Source: Spirochaetes bacterium ADurb.BinA120
GTDB lineage: Bacteria; Spirochaetota; UBA4802; UBA5368
Reading direction: 5' to 3'
DNA: 54,775 bases
NCBI GenBank assembly: GCA_002069125.1
Contig: MVZN01000015.1
Span: forward strand, 1-54,775
A program made the position numbers and the translations under genes. Below are positions 10,108 through 29,515 of the stretch, in pieces (position 1 is the first letter of the stretch; each line of letters begins with the position of its first letter). Under the pieces are notes generated by a model. The model was not told the DNA's origin and ran no database searches. It saw only the letters and a program-made list of their open reading frames with translations.

Positions 10108-10586
10108 CCCCCCGCCTCAGCGGTCAGAATTTTCCATTGTATTCATTATCATTTTCGGCCGAAAATCGGGCGCCCAACAGATCATTTTTCCCCGCCCTGT
10201 TATGATAATGGGGCATGGCCCGAAAAAAGTCAACCAGCACACGCCCCCAACGGCGAAATCCGGCCGCCGGAGGCCTTTCATCCGCTCCCGGCCATACGCG
10301 GCCGTCACGCCGCATTCCTTTTGCGGGCCGGCATACACGCCTTAAATCGCGCATCGCGCCCATTGACAATCGAGGGCCGTAAAAATAAAATAATTCTATT
10401 GACAAAGACGCAATTAATGCGTAGAATGCGGCGCGGTTTGAGTTTCCGGAAATCCATATATAATAAACAGGATTGCGCATTCGATAAGTGGCGCAAAACG
10501 CCGCCCGGAAAATAACGACATCCCGGGGATCCGGTTTCGCCGTATCGCCGGTTTCCGATTCACTTTAACGTGTGTGGAACAGGGAA
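10108..10586. other. Gene-free divergent spacer
   Basis: This 479-base spacer separates divergent genes and is more AT-rich in its right half. I see no gene in it. It contains a perfect 16-base palindrome at 10151-10166, with centre CGGCCG, that could bind a dimeric regulator. It also contains a strong rightward promoter at 10399-10427. No convincing leftward promoter was found. Confidence 0.5.
10399..10427 (+). promoter_or_regulatory. Strong sigma-70 promoter for the tail-anchored protein gene
   Basis: A perfect TTGACA (10399-10404) is followed after 17 bases by TAGAAT (10422-10427), which matches five of six -10 positions, with an A-rich stretch just upstream. The start of transcription would be near 10434, giving a leader of about 150 bases before 10587. 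Confidence 0.65.
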
Positions 10587-11591
10587 ATGGCTGAAAACAG
10601 AACCCAGGGTGAATTCCTCGAAGGCGGAAGCTACCTTGTAGTAAAAGGCCGGTTTAAGTCGCAATCGCTTAACCTCTATGGAATCTTTTTTGTCGTCTTC
10701 GACACCGAAGGCTCCATAGAAAACCAGAACATCATCGTATCGACCTTCTCCAACGCCTTCGAACTCGAGCCCCACGTCGGCTGGGAGCGCTACGAGGAGA
10801 ACATCATGGAGCTCAAGTGGAAGGGCAACTTCAACTCCAGCATGAGCTCCTCGCTGATTGACCAGCTCAAGGCGGTCGCCACACAGCCCAATCTCAATTC
10901 GCAGCTTTACGAATCCGCCTCCGGTTACGATTACGATCGCGTCGAGATATTCTTCTCCGACATGCTCTACCGCATAGTTCACGACAAAAACCTGATACTC
11001 GAGATAGGCATACAGGAAGTAACGGAGGAGGAGTTCAAGGCGGCCCGCGAGAGACGCCAGCAGGCGGTGGAGACCCCGGCCGCACAGGCGGCGAAGAAGG
11101 GTTACAACGTCGAGGACGGCTCGGTCATCCTGCCGCTTCAGCCCATACTGGCCCCGGTAAAGGGCAAACCCCTGTACGAGCTTAAAATCGGCGACCGGAT
11201 AATGGCCAAGATCGTCGCCAACTCGGAGCGCGAAAAATACTTCATAGAAATATTGAACCTCAGGGTGGAAGACCACGTCCGGCCGGTGCCCTGCGAGGTT
11301 ATCGACATCAAGGCGAGCAGTAAAAACGATCCCATAGAAATACTCTCCCAGATCGCGCCCGGCATCTACGGTAAAATGGTGGAAGACGAACGGCAGGTCA
11401 AGCTGCGTATGTACGACCCCATGGTGGACGGCCCCATCAGTAAAAAGACCATTCCCGTCAGAAATCCCCTGAAGGAGCAGCCCACAAACGCCGCCCCGGA
11501 GGGGGGGGTGTCCCGGATGACCTACTTTATAATGGGGCTTTTCGCGCTGCTTTTGGTAATCTTCATAATCCTTATTTACCTAAGTTTCTGA
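10587..11591 (+). CDS. Tail-anchored membrane protein of unknown function
   Basis: This 334-residue protein has no signal peptide and ends in one membrane helix (about residues 309-333, with MGLFALLLVIFIILIYL), so most of it should face the cytoplasm. The soluble part is alpha/beta: strands near residues 14-50 (SYLVVKGRF, GIFFVVFDTEG), a Gln/Ala-rich linker near 155-170, and a second strand-rich domain (YELKIGDRIMAKIV, PVPCEVIDIKA). I do not recognise the family but it looks conserved rather than random. The ATG at 10587 is taken; a GTG at 10572 in frame is the alternative. It is the first gene after a strong promoter. Confidence 0.82.
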   Translation: MAENRTQGEFLEGGSYLVVKGRFKSQSLNLYGIFFVVFDTEGSIENQNIIVSTFSNAFELEPHVGWERYEENIMELKWKGNFNSSMSSSLIDQLKAVATQPNLNSQLYESASGYDYDRVEIFFSDMLYRIVHDKNLILEIGIQEVTEEEFKAARERRQQAVETPAAQAAKKGYNVEDGSVILPLQPILAPVKGKPLYELKIGDRIMAKIVANSEREKYFIEILNLRVEDHVRPVPCEVIDIKASSKNDPIEILSQIAPGIYGKMVEDERQVKLRMYDPMVDGPISKKTIPVRNPLKEQPTNAAPEGGVSRMTYFIMGLFALLLVIFIILIYLSF

Positions 11592-11741
11592 TTACCGAAC
11601 AGTGGGAGTTCCGACCCCCGGGCCGTTTAGAGTGGCTTGCATCCTCTCCGGGGGACGCGTCTACTTTGGGAAGCAGGCGGGAGAAAAGACCGGTTAACCT
11701 GGTCCGCCATTTCCGGGGCTAATAAACCACCTTCCTTTGTG

Positions 11742-11757
11742 CCGATACATATATCGG
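11742..11757 (+). other. Short hairpin before the small ORF preceding glutamine synthetase
   Basis: CCGATA and TATCGG pair around a CATA loop, ending 10 bases before the AGGAGGT ribosome-binding site at 11768-11774. It could influence initiation of the 42-residue ORF. No other regulatory element is clear in the spacer 11592-11767, which is GC-rich and could be structured. Confidence 0.35.
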
Positions 11758-11779
11758 AAGCGCATACAGGAGGTGGGTT

Positions 11780-11908
11780 ATGTTCTACATACTTCTTCGC
11801 CTGCTGTACGAGGAGATGGAGAGCGGGATGATTTCGCCGCGGGAATATCGTTCGGCCGTGGAGAAAGTCGCCATGATCCACGGCTTCAGGAGAAACGGAA
11901 TACGGTAG
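11780..11908 (+). CDS. 42-residue protein encoded immediately upstream of glutamine synthetase
   Basis: The ATG has a full AGGAGGT Shine-Dalgarno sequence 5 bases upstream, the best in the window. The product begins MFYILLRLLYEEMESG, carries a middle part ISPREYRSAVEKVAMIHG and ends FRRNGIR; it looks like two amphipathic helices with a basic tail. The TAG stop is directly followed by the ATG of glutamine synthetase, with no intervening base, and the latter has no separate ribosome-binding site, so the two should be translationally coupled. I do not recognise a family. Small proteins that bind glutamine synthetase are known in cyanobacteria and archaea; a similar role here is only a suggestion. 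Confidence 0.72.
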   Translation: MFYILLRLLYEEMESGMISPREYRSAVEKVAMIHGFRRNGIR

Positions 11909-13234
11909 ATGAGCAGAGACAGGGAATACATACTGAAGCTCGCCGCCGAAAACCGGGTGAAATTCATCCGCTTGTGGTTTTCGGACATCCTGGGCTTTCT
12001 TAAAAGCTTCGCCATAACCATTGACGAGCTCGAGGACGCCCTTGTCCAGGGGGTGCGTTTCGACGGCTCCACCCTCCAGGGGGCCATCCGCCGGGACGAG
12101 TCCGAGATGATAGCCCTTCCCGACACCTCGACCTTTCAGGTGCTTCCGTGGCGTCCCCGGGAGGACTCGGTGGCCCGCATGTTCTGCGACATATACCGCA
12201 ACGACATGACCCCCTACGAGGGGGACTCGCGCTACGTGCTCAAAAGGATGCTGCGCAGGGCGTCCGATGAGGGCTATTCGTTTTATACCGGTCCGGAGAT
12301 AGAGTTCTTTTTCTTTAAAAACTCATCGTCTCCGGAGATCCTCGACCGCGGCGGATATTACGACCTAACCCCGCTCGACATGGCATCGGACTACCGACGG
12401 CAGACGGTCCTAACCCTCGAGAAGATGGGCATAGGGGTCATATCCTCTCACCATGAGGGGGCCCACAGCCAGCACGAGATCGACCTTAGGCACGAGAACG
12501 CGCTTACAATGGCCGATAACATCATGACCTTCAGGCTAATCGTCAAGGAGATCGGCCAGTCCAACGGCATTTACGCCTCTTTTATGCCCAAACCCCTGGC
12601 CGAGCAGAACGGTTCGGGCATGCACATCCACCAGTCCCTTTTCCTCGACGAGGAGAACATCTTCTTCGATTACACCGATGAATCGCGTCTCTCCGTTGAG
12701 GGCAGGCGCTATATAGCGGGGCTACTCCGACACTCGAGGGAGTTTTTCGCAATCACCAACCAGTGGATAAATTCCTACAAGCGACTTTTATACGGCTTCG
12801 AGGCGCCCACGCACATTTCGTGGAGCACCCGATGCGACACCTCTCTCATACGCGTACCCGAGTGCAACCCCGACAAGCCCGGCGCCATGCGCGTGGAGCT
12901 TCGCAACCCGGACCCCGCGTGCAATCCATATCTCGTTTTCGCCGCGGTGCTCGCAAGCGGCCTTAAAGGAATAAGCGAGCGCTACGAACTGCCCCCTCCG
13001 CTCGACCCGGACCGAAAGCTGGCCAGCCGGGCGGATTTCCAGAAGATGGGGCTTGAGCCTCTGCCCACAAATCTCGGCGAGGCGCTTGTCGACCTCGGAA
13101 AAAGCGCCCTGATGCGGGACGCGCTGGGAGACCGGCTCGTCGACAACTTTATAGAAAACAAGATGTTCGAGATCGACCGCTTCAACTCCCACATCACCGA
13201 TTACGAAATAAGCGAATACCTGCCCATACTCTAA
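11909..13234 (+). CDS. glnA: Glutamine synthetase, type I (short, non-adenylylated class)
   Basis: Glutamine synthetase joins ammonia to glutamate with ATP and is the main nitrogen-assimilation enzyme. At 441 residues it fits the GSI-alpha length and lacks the adenylylation segment of the longer beta class. Active-site signatures are present: RFDGSTLQG near residue 50, GPEIEFF near 128-134, EGAHSQHEID near 185, GSGMHIHQS at 235-243, NSYKRL with EAP near 290-300, and RVELRNPDPACNPY near 325-340. The EGAHSQHEID motif differs a little from the more usual EVAPGQHEID, so a gamma-glutamyl-amine ligase role is a minor alternative. The start abuts the 42-residue ORF, and an oxidoreductase gene follows after 17 bases. 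Confidence 0.9.
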   Translation: MSRDREYILKLAAENRVKFIRLWFSDILGFLKSFAITIDELEDALVQGVRFDGSTLQGAIRRDESEMIALPDTSTFQVLPWRPREDSVARMFCDIYRNDMTPYEGDSRYVLKRMLRRASDEGYSFYTGPEIEFFFFKNSSSPEILDRGGYYDLTPLDMASDYRRQTVLTLEKMGIGVISSHHEGAHSQHEIDLRHENALTMADNIMTFRLIVKEIGQSNGIYASFMPKPLAEQNGSGMHIHQSLFLDEENIFFDYTDESRLSVEGRRYIAGLLRHSREFFAITNQWINSYKRLLYGFEAPTHISWSTRCDTSLIRVPECNPDKPGAMRVELRNPDPACNPYLVFAAVLASGLKGISERYELPPPLDPDRKLASRADFQKMGLEPLPTNLGEALVDLGKSALMRDALGDRLVDNFIENKMFEIDRFNSHITDYEISEYLPIL

Positions 13235-13251: not shown

Positions 13252-14337
13252 ATGAAACGACCGCGCATAGCGCTCATCGGCTGCGGAAGGATCGGGTTTC
13301 TGCTCGAATCCGACCCTCTCCGCCATAAACCATGCACTCATTATGGCGGGGCATTATCGGCCGGCCTTGCGGTTACTCACGCGTGCGACACCGATCCCGA
13401 AAGGCTGAACGCGTTCGTGCGCGCGTCGGGCATACCCCGCGAAAACGCCTTCACAAGCCACCAGGAGCTTATCGATTCGGCCCATCCCGAGCTCGTCATC
13501 GTCGCCACCTGGACCGAAACGCACGCGGAAATAGGCATAAGGGCCGCCCATGGCGGCGCGCGTGTGATCGTCTGCGAGAAACCCCTGGCCGCAAGCCTGA
13601 AAGACGCCGCAAGCCTCATCGCCGCCTGCAAGCGGCGCGGCGCCGGGCTCATCGTAAACCACGAGCGCAGATATGACCCGCGTTACGCCAGAATAAGGAG
13701 CATGATCGAAGAGGGCCTAATAGGACAGGTGCGAACCGTGCACGCCTCCATACTTACCGGCGGATTCCGGGGAGTTTCGCGCACGGAGATGGGCGGCGGG
13801 CCCCTGCTGCACGACGGCACCCACATGATCGACATAATACGCTTTCTTTTCGGGGAGATCGCCTCGGTATCCGGCCGGTTCGACCGGGCGGGAAACCGCA
13901 CGAGCGGTTTCGAGGACCGCGCGACGGCCTGGATCAGGACGCGCGGCGGGATCGATGTATTCCTCGAGGCCGGCGGCCCCAGGGATTACTTCGTCTTCGA
14001 GCTTTTAATCTCCGGCACGAAGGGAAAAATCGTCGCTGGGAACGGCTATCAGTCGCTCCACACAGCGAGGAGGTCCCGGTATTATACCGGCTTTAACGAC
14101 CTGGCGGAGCGGCCGTTCCCGCGTTTCAGGCGCGACAACTACTTCACCATGGAATATCGCGAGGCCGCCAGAATGCTCGCCGGGGAGGACATACAGGCGA
14201 CCTCGGGGGGCGAGGACGCCTACAGGGCTATCGAGGCTATCCACGCCATCTATCTTTCCTCCTCAAAAGGCGGAAAAATTGTTGAATTGCCGATCAAACC
14301 GGGTATAATCAGCATGAAAAAAATATTCGGAATCTGA
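13252..14337 (+). CDS. Gfo/Idh/MocA family NAD(P)-dependent oxidoreductase
   Basis: This 361-residue soluble dehydrogenase has an N-terminal Rossmann fold with ALIGCGRIGFL near residues 6-16. The family catalytic Lys lies in CEKPLA near residue 106. The C-terminal alpha/beta domain carries GGGPLLHDGTHMIDIIRFLFG near residues 182-202, where the GTHMIDIIRF part is the usual active-site Asp/His segment. Substrates in this family are sugars, inositols and nucleotide sugars; the specific one cannot be read here. The ATG at 13252 fits the fold; a GTG 12 bases upstream is possible. It follows glutamine synthetase by 17 bases and may be co-transcribed. Confidence 0.88.
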   Translation: MKRPRIALIGCGRIGFLLESDPLRHKPCTHYGGALSAGLAVTHACDTDPERLNAFVRASGIPRENAFTSHQELIDSAHPELVIVATWTETHAEIGIRAAHGGARVIVCEKPLAASLKDAASLIAACKRRGAGLIVNHERRYDPRYARIRSMIEEGLIGQVRTVHASILTGGFRGVSRTEMGGGPLLHDGTHMIDIIRFLFGEIASVSGRFDRAGNRTSGFEDRATAWIRTRGGIDVFLEAGGPRDYFVFELLISGTKGKIVAGNGYQSLHTARRSRYYTGFNDLAERPFPRFRRDNYFTMEYREAARMLAGEDIQATSGGEDAYRAIEAIHAIYLSSSKGGKIVELPIKPGIISMKKIFGI

Positions 14338-29323: not shown

Positions 29324-29515
29324 CTATTTTTTCCAGTGGATACACTCGGCGGGACAGCTGTCGATGACCTCCTGGATCTTGTCCTCCGACGCGCCTGTGG
29401 GGTTATGCACGACGCTCACACCATCGGGCGTCATTTCGAAAACCTCGGGCAGCGTATCGACGCAGAGCTCACACCCGGTGCACTCGCTTTCATCGACGTA
29501 AACTTCTTTGGCCAT
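29324..29515 (-). CDS. [4Fe-4S] ferredoxin
   Basis: The 63-residue protein has Cys12, Cys15, Cys18 and Cys54-Pro, the ligand pattern of a single [4Fe-4S] cluster, plus a fifth Cys58. The acidic composition is as usual for an electron-transfer ferredoxin. The N-terminus begins with the first strand (KEVYVDESECTGC). A purine-rich AAGGAGG element (minus strand, near 29526-29520) precedes the ATG. It is encoded between secG and metK in the same direction. Confidence 0.93.
   Translation of the reverse strand: MAKEVYVDESECTGCELCVDTLPEVFEMTPDGVSVVHNPTGASEDKIQEVIDSCPAECIHWKK

Follow-up and report, generated by a model that had tools for sequence, protein, structure and literature searches.

A 42-codon reading frame that directly precedes glnA, the gene for a short-type glutamine synthetase I (GSI), is on comparative grounds a real and conserved gene of an uncultured spirochaete group. 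The reading that we favour, to which we assign a probability of roughly 0.55, is that it constitutes an autonomous, SHOCT-like small-protein gene equipped with a promoter-like element and a Shine-Dalgarno (SD) sequence of its own, that its product would act as a hairpin adaptor or regulator, and that the translation of glnA would be coupled to it. The features of the locus within the window (the whole stretch of DNA analysed, 54,775 nt) are as follows.

10572..11591, + strand: upstream neighbour, DUF4899 protein (Pfam PF16240, E 5e-7)
11720..11747, + strand: promoter-like element, TAAT at 11720-11723, 17 nt, then GCCGATA at 11741-11747 (from a leader comparison of 18 genomes)
11768..11774, + strand: Shine-Dalgarno sequence AGGAGGT, 5 nt (GGGTT) ahead of the ATG at 11780 (duplex energy -11.6)
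11780..11908, + strand: small-protein gene, 42 aa, stop TAG at 11906-11908 (profile search, pN/pS, AlphaFold model)
11906..11911, + strand: TAG-ATG stop-start junction (gap compared in the 17 genomes with both genes)
11909..13234, + strand: glnA, short-type glutamine synthetase I, 441 aa (Pfam PF03951, Gln-synt_N, and PF00120, Gln-synt_C)
13252..14337, + strand: downstream neighbour, Gfo/Idh/MocA oxidoreductase (Pfam PF01408)

Relatives were fetched with the glnA of the window, and a profile (A1) was built from 12 small-protein sequences. Searches with A1 find the ORF in 18 of the 46 genomes of the order and not in the other 28, distributed over families f1 to f7 as f1 8/8, f2 1/1, f4 4/4, f6 5/6, f3 0/4, f5 0/3 and f7 0/20. 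All 18 copies are exactly 42 codons long and carry a GGAGG SD (mean duplex energy -11.4), and none is frameshifted. Thirteen of the 42 columns are invariant in the alignment of 12 sequences; Arg 7 is invariant in the 12 close members, Arg 42 is present in 17 of the 18 copies, and the basic tail of the protein is conserved. Pairwise comparison (153 pairs, not mutually independent) gives a median pN/pS of 0.28, and differences at codon positions 1, 2 and 3 number 1764, 1179 and 3620. While a lone 42-codon ORF would be attributable to chance, the residues, length, SD and junction kept in 18 genomes argue that this one is not. The initial annotation had staked its proposal on the amino acids being conserved, not just the length, and on the frame being free of frameshifts in relatives, and both hold among these copies.

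The family searches covered 392 Spirochaetota genomes and, as their sole reach beyond the phylum, a set of 80 named loci retrieved through similarity to GS. Four of these 80 loci hold the ORF, and all four are spirochaete records. Short ORFs do precede many other glnA genes, and these are chance occurrences that show no resemblance to the 42-aa family by profile search. A phage or plasmid origin of the small gene was considered and rejected, with no relevant match in plasmids, viral contigs or PHROGs. The gene also provides an example of how a conserved 42-aa gene can escape the family libraries.

The positions of AGGAGGT, 5 bases 5' of the ATG at 11780, and of the TAG stop, abutting the glnA ATG at 11909, are as the initial annotation gave them and can be read directly from the sequence. 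In calling this SD the best initiation signal of the window, it goes slightly too far: at -11.6 the signal is among the strongest, but once alternative starts are admitted, one of the 42 long ORFs scored rises to -11.8. The window contains 13 copies of AGGAGGT, and three of them lie 4-10 nt ahead of a start codon, namely those of the 42-codon ORF, a ferredoxin-like ORF of 63 aa and an ORF of 929 aa starting with GTG. The ferredoxin-like ORF (so named by eye; 29324-29515, - strand) has the exact AGGAGGT 4 nt before its ATG. That GS has no SD of its own is correct as regards spacing, the nearest AGGAG lying about 16 nt before the glnA ATG, but it is not peculiar to this arrangement, since the GS SD is no better in genomes without the ORF (mean duplex energy -4.9, n=12 scored) than in those with it (-5.6, n=17).

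In all 17 genomes that have both genes, which span four families, the gap from the small-gene stop to the glnA start is -1, 0, +2 or +3 nt. The stop itself varies among TAG, TAA and TGA, and the small gene is in frame with glnA in 10 of the 17. The varied stops and the 10 of 17 in frame exclude a read-through product as a general rule, and read-through or fusion with GS was rejected on these grounds. The geometry is that of coupled re-initiation: ribosomes that finish the small protein would probably re-initiate at the glnA start lying on its stop codon, and GS output would probably track the promoter and SD of the small gene.

One of the 18 ORF-bearing genomes, G010, has no intact glnA, yet its small gene, SD and GCCGATA are all intact. 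The small gene is followed there, after ~330 bp, by the Gfo/Idh gene that normally follows glnA, and the gap holds glnA traces collinear with the gene of the congener G023, one of 33 bp at 88% (E 2e-7) and one of 75 bp at 69% (E 0.004). In the 75-bp trace, which has a stop inside it in G010, G010 agrees with G023 at 52/75 positions, fewer than the 57/75 at which G019, from another genus, agrees with G023; no such reversal of order is seen in the 33-bp trace (29/33 versus 28/33). The remnant (L118 1627-1960) is a pseudogene caught in decay next to an intact small gene. No other GSI is found in G010, whose single PF00120 match lies in a 731-aa frame of a long GS type. This second, long GS type (mostly 700-770 aa frames) is present in 30 of 34 genomes in the PF00120 search, for example at G000:C1:51372-51839.

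The small genes of G010 and G023 are alike at 104 of 126 nt and differ at five amino acids, none of them in the invariant columns. With pS at 0.46 and pN at 0.09 next to a decayed glnA, the constraint on the small gene has outlasted glnA, which suggests that the small protein is probably not merely a helper of GS. G010 is a single draft genome, 93% complete, and its loss of glnA may be recent relative to the turnover of so small a gene. This natural loss makes the choice between a GS partner and an independent protein directly testable.

Relatives outside the order point in the same direction. Across the 392 Spirochaetota genomes, A1 recovers the same 18 genomes and four more, G169, G049, G082 and G181, with per-genome E-values of 1.6e-7 to 1.8e-5. 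These four belong to other spirochaete families, and their copies are stand-alone ORFs of 43 to 51 codons, each with its own ATG and with GGAGG, GAGG or GAGAGG a few bases before it. The stretch shared with the close members is mainly the first 31-34 residues, and the remote relatives could be convergent hairpins. The small gene is present in 2 of the 30 genomes of G049's order and in 2 of the 31 of G169's order. With the widened profiles A2 and A5 these 22 genomes come back, accompanied by weak matches only (G098, G212, G229, G232, G268, G274 and G351), which were dropped, all having E > 5e-4; on inspection of the G229, G232 and G274 sequences, none of these three matches starts at an ATG.

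None of the four remote loci has a glnA neighbour. Judged by eye from the translations, the G049 copy is flanked by CoaBC-like halves, the G181 copy by an FMN-reductase-like protein and a histidine kinase, and the G169 copy by a dihydroorotate dehydrogenase. In G082 (L134 5882-8308) the relative is followed, at a distance of 141 bp, by an ammonium-transporter-like ORF that has, by eye, a phosphatase-like C-terminal part.

The product is predicted to fold as a helical hairpin followed by a flexible, basic tail: the AlphaFold model of the 42 residues has a helix at 2-15, a turn, a helix at 20-33 and a disordered tail (pLDDT 85, pTM 0.58, from a shallow alignment of five rows). A Foldseek search with this model gives nothing below E 0.7, with SHOCT-named viral proteins among the low-ranked matches, and the best match in a search for a solved homologue (E 0.16) is chance-like. 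The SHOCT domain (PF09851) is described as about 30 residues forming a pair of amphipathic helices joined by a G-x-I-[ST] turn with a conserved Glu after it, for which binding has been suggested (PMC3581485). The small protein shares with it two helices within about 30 residues, as seen in the AlphaFold model, but it is an entire stand-alone protein of 42 aa, whereas SHOCT is described as mostly a C-terminal part of larger proteins (PMC3581485). PF09851 matches 0 of 12 members at E-values up to 10 and so stays short of its Pfam cut-off. The best Pfam match is to the SHOCT-like DUF1707, which appears in five of the 12 members and reaches E 0.0033 at best; the alignment of a SHOCT sequence from G010 to the small protein spans 19 residues, with a low probability (11.8%). 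As candidate counterparts of the strongly conserved Gly and Glu of SHOCT, G16 is invariant in the 12 close members but gives way to R or K in three of the four remote relatives, and E22 is nearly invariant in the close members only. We propose that the hairpin is most likely a protein-binding adaptor or regulator that acts in trans, with a target beyond GSI alone.

Small proteins that bind GS occur in cyanobacteria and methanogens, and in Gram-positives GlnR does so too; to our knowledge none comes from spirochaetes, and the literature searches yielded no case of a spirochaete small GS-binding protein. The main rival to an autonomous gene is a subunit dedicated to this GSI, with a role in its regulation or assembly, held at a fixed ratio by translational coupling in the manner of IF7/IF17 or sP26. 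We regard this as possible but weakened. The cyanobacterial inhibitors IF7 and IF17, in which three conserved arginines are essential for GS inhibition, resemble the present case as small, Arg-containing proteins linked to a GS; they have genes of their own, gifA and gifB, controlled by NtcA (PMC6316151), whereas the spirochaete gene adjoins glnA and, in G010, outlives it. Searches of the family libraries Pfam and NCBIfam report no IF-like family for the small protein. In Methanosarcina mazei, sP26 (PMC11957540) and sP36 (PMC10714827) are described as small proteins of 23 and 61 aa that act on GlnA1 or AmtB1 in nitrogen control; the parallel between these archaeal proteins and the 42-aa protein is drawn from their description.

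A GS partner would be expected to lie beside glnA, as 17 of the 18 close copies do, and the coupled junction in every genome with both genes, the conserved residues including Arg 7, the basic tail and the hint of a nitrogen role in the position of the G082 relative all fit such a subunit. Against it stand the intact ORF of G010, the remote relatives away from any GS and the 25 of 42 glnA-bearing members of the order that have no ORF. The initial annotation had named relatives with the same gene order but no ORF as evidence against a role with GS, and such relatives exist: in 22 genomes of f3 and f7 the DUF4899 gene is upstream of glnA in 22/22 and the Gfo/Idh gene downstream in 19, with no ORF between DUF4899 and glnA. 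These shared neighbours suggest that some lineages gained the small gene by insertion or that others lost it. Presence of the ORF takes two changes when mapped on a 44-row GS tree, and the small gene may still have had a single origin. Co-adapting GS residues were also considered and rejected, since only two columns (176 and 304) separate genomes with and without the ORF, and thus no co-adaptation is visible. The earlier suggestion of a regulatory subunit or a coupling leader is therefore supported in part, by the coupling geometry and the conserved residues, but the GS-specific half of it does not sit well with G010 and the four remote relatives. An autonomous gene remains our preferred reading: one set of spirochaete families has it interposed between DUF4899 and glnA, where it behaves like a cassette placed before glnA rather than a part of GS. 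A model of a TAG=Q fusion of the small protein and GS predicts both folds (pLDDT 89.7), and its output, which comes without contacts, is uninformative on binding.

The leaders carry a further conserved signal. In all 18 leaders CCGAT[AT] occurs 36-47 nt upstream of the ORF, usually as GCCGAT[AT] (ACCGATA in G019). Of the 27 loci that lack the small gene, none has this motif within the 250 nt preceding glnA. The motif tracks the small gene, not glnA. T[AT]AT is found 20-21 nt before CCGAT[AT] in 14 of 18 leaders, while non-neighbouring offsets give 0 or 1 of 18. A search with Rfam finds no riboswitch near the leader; a single sub-threshold match lies on the opposite strand at 13900.

The leader motif bears a suggestive resemblance to a sigma-28 -10 element. 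The mapped flaB2 promoter of T. denticola, assigned to sigma-28, has CCGATAA at -10 and TTAA at -35 (PMC9481697), and two of the four remote-relative leaders hold CCGATAA or TCGATAA. Together with the second block at fixed spacing, this could mean that the small gene belongs to a motility regulon and that glnA was brought under a sigma-28 promoter. Several observations make this improbable: TAAA-N12-16-GCCGATA is not enriched in the own genome (18 matches versus 16 in the control), 10 of the 17 other matches of this strict pattern fall inside long open frames, and most flagellin leaders inspected are without the motif. The second block is moreover TAAT or TTAT, at a spacing 1-2 nt above the E. 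coli pattern. A sigma-28 regulon defined by the strict pattern was rejected for want of enrichment. A broader and still doubtful proposal is that the small proteins form an undescribed spirochaetal family of stand-alone hairpins that, from a sigma-28-like promoter, would tie glutamine synthesis to motility by coupled translation and would have a second nitrogen or signalling target where GSI is gone. If true, candidates for that second target would include the 730-aa GS type and an ammonium transporter.

The other half of the earlier suggestion, a mere leader whose strong SD loads ribosomes that go on to glnA and whose peptide is irrelevant, draws on the contrast between the strong ORF SD and the weak glnA SD and on the abutting or overlapping stops and starts, but is the most unlikely reading given the purifying selection on the residues, the identical length in 18 genomes, the survival of the gene without glnA, and a GS SD equally weak in genomes without the ORF, which indicates that no leader is needed.

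We further note that the Gfo/Idh gene is found downstream of glnA in most of the order, and the DUF4899 gene is constant upstream of glnA in f1, f2, f3, f4, f6 and f7, though not in f5. In the window, the DUF4899 gene (10572-11591) encodes a C-terminal hydrophobic stretch.
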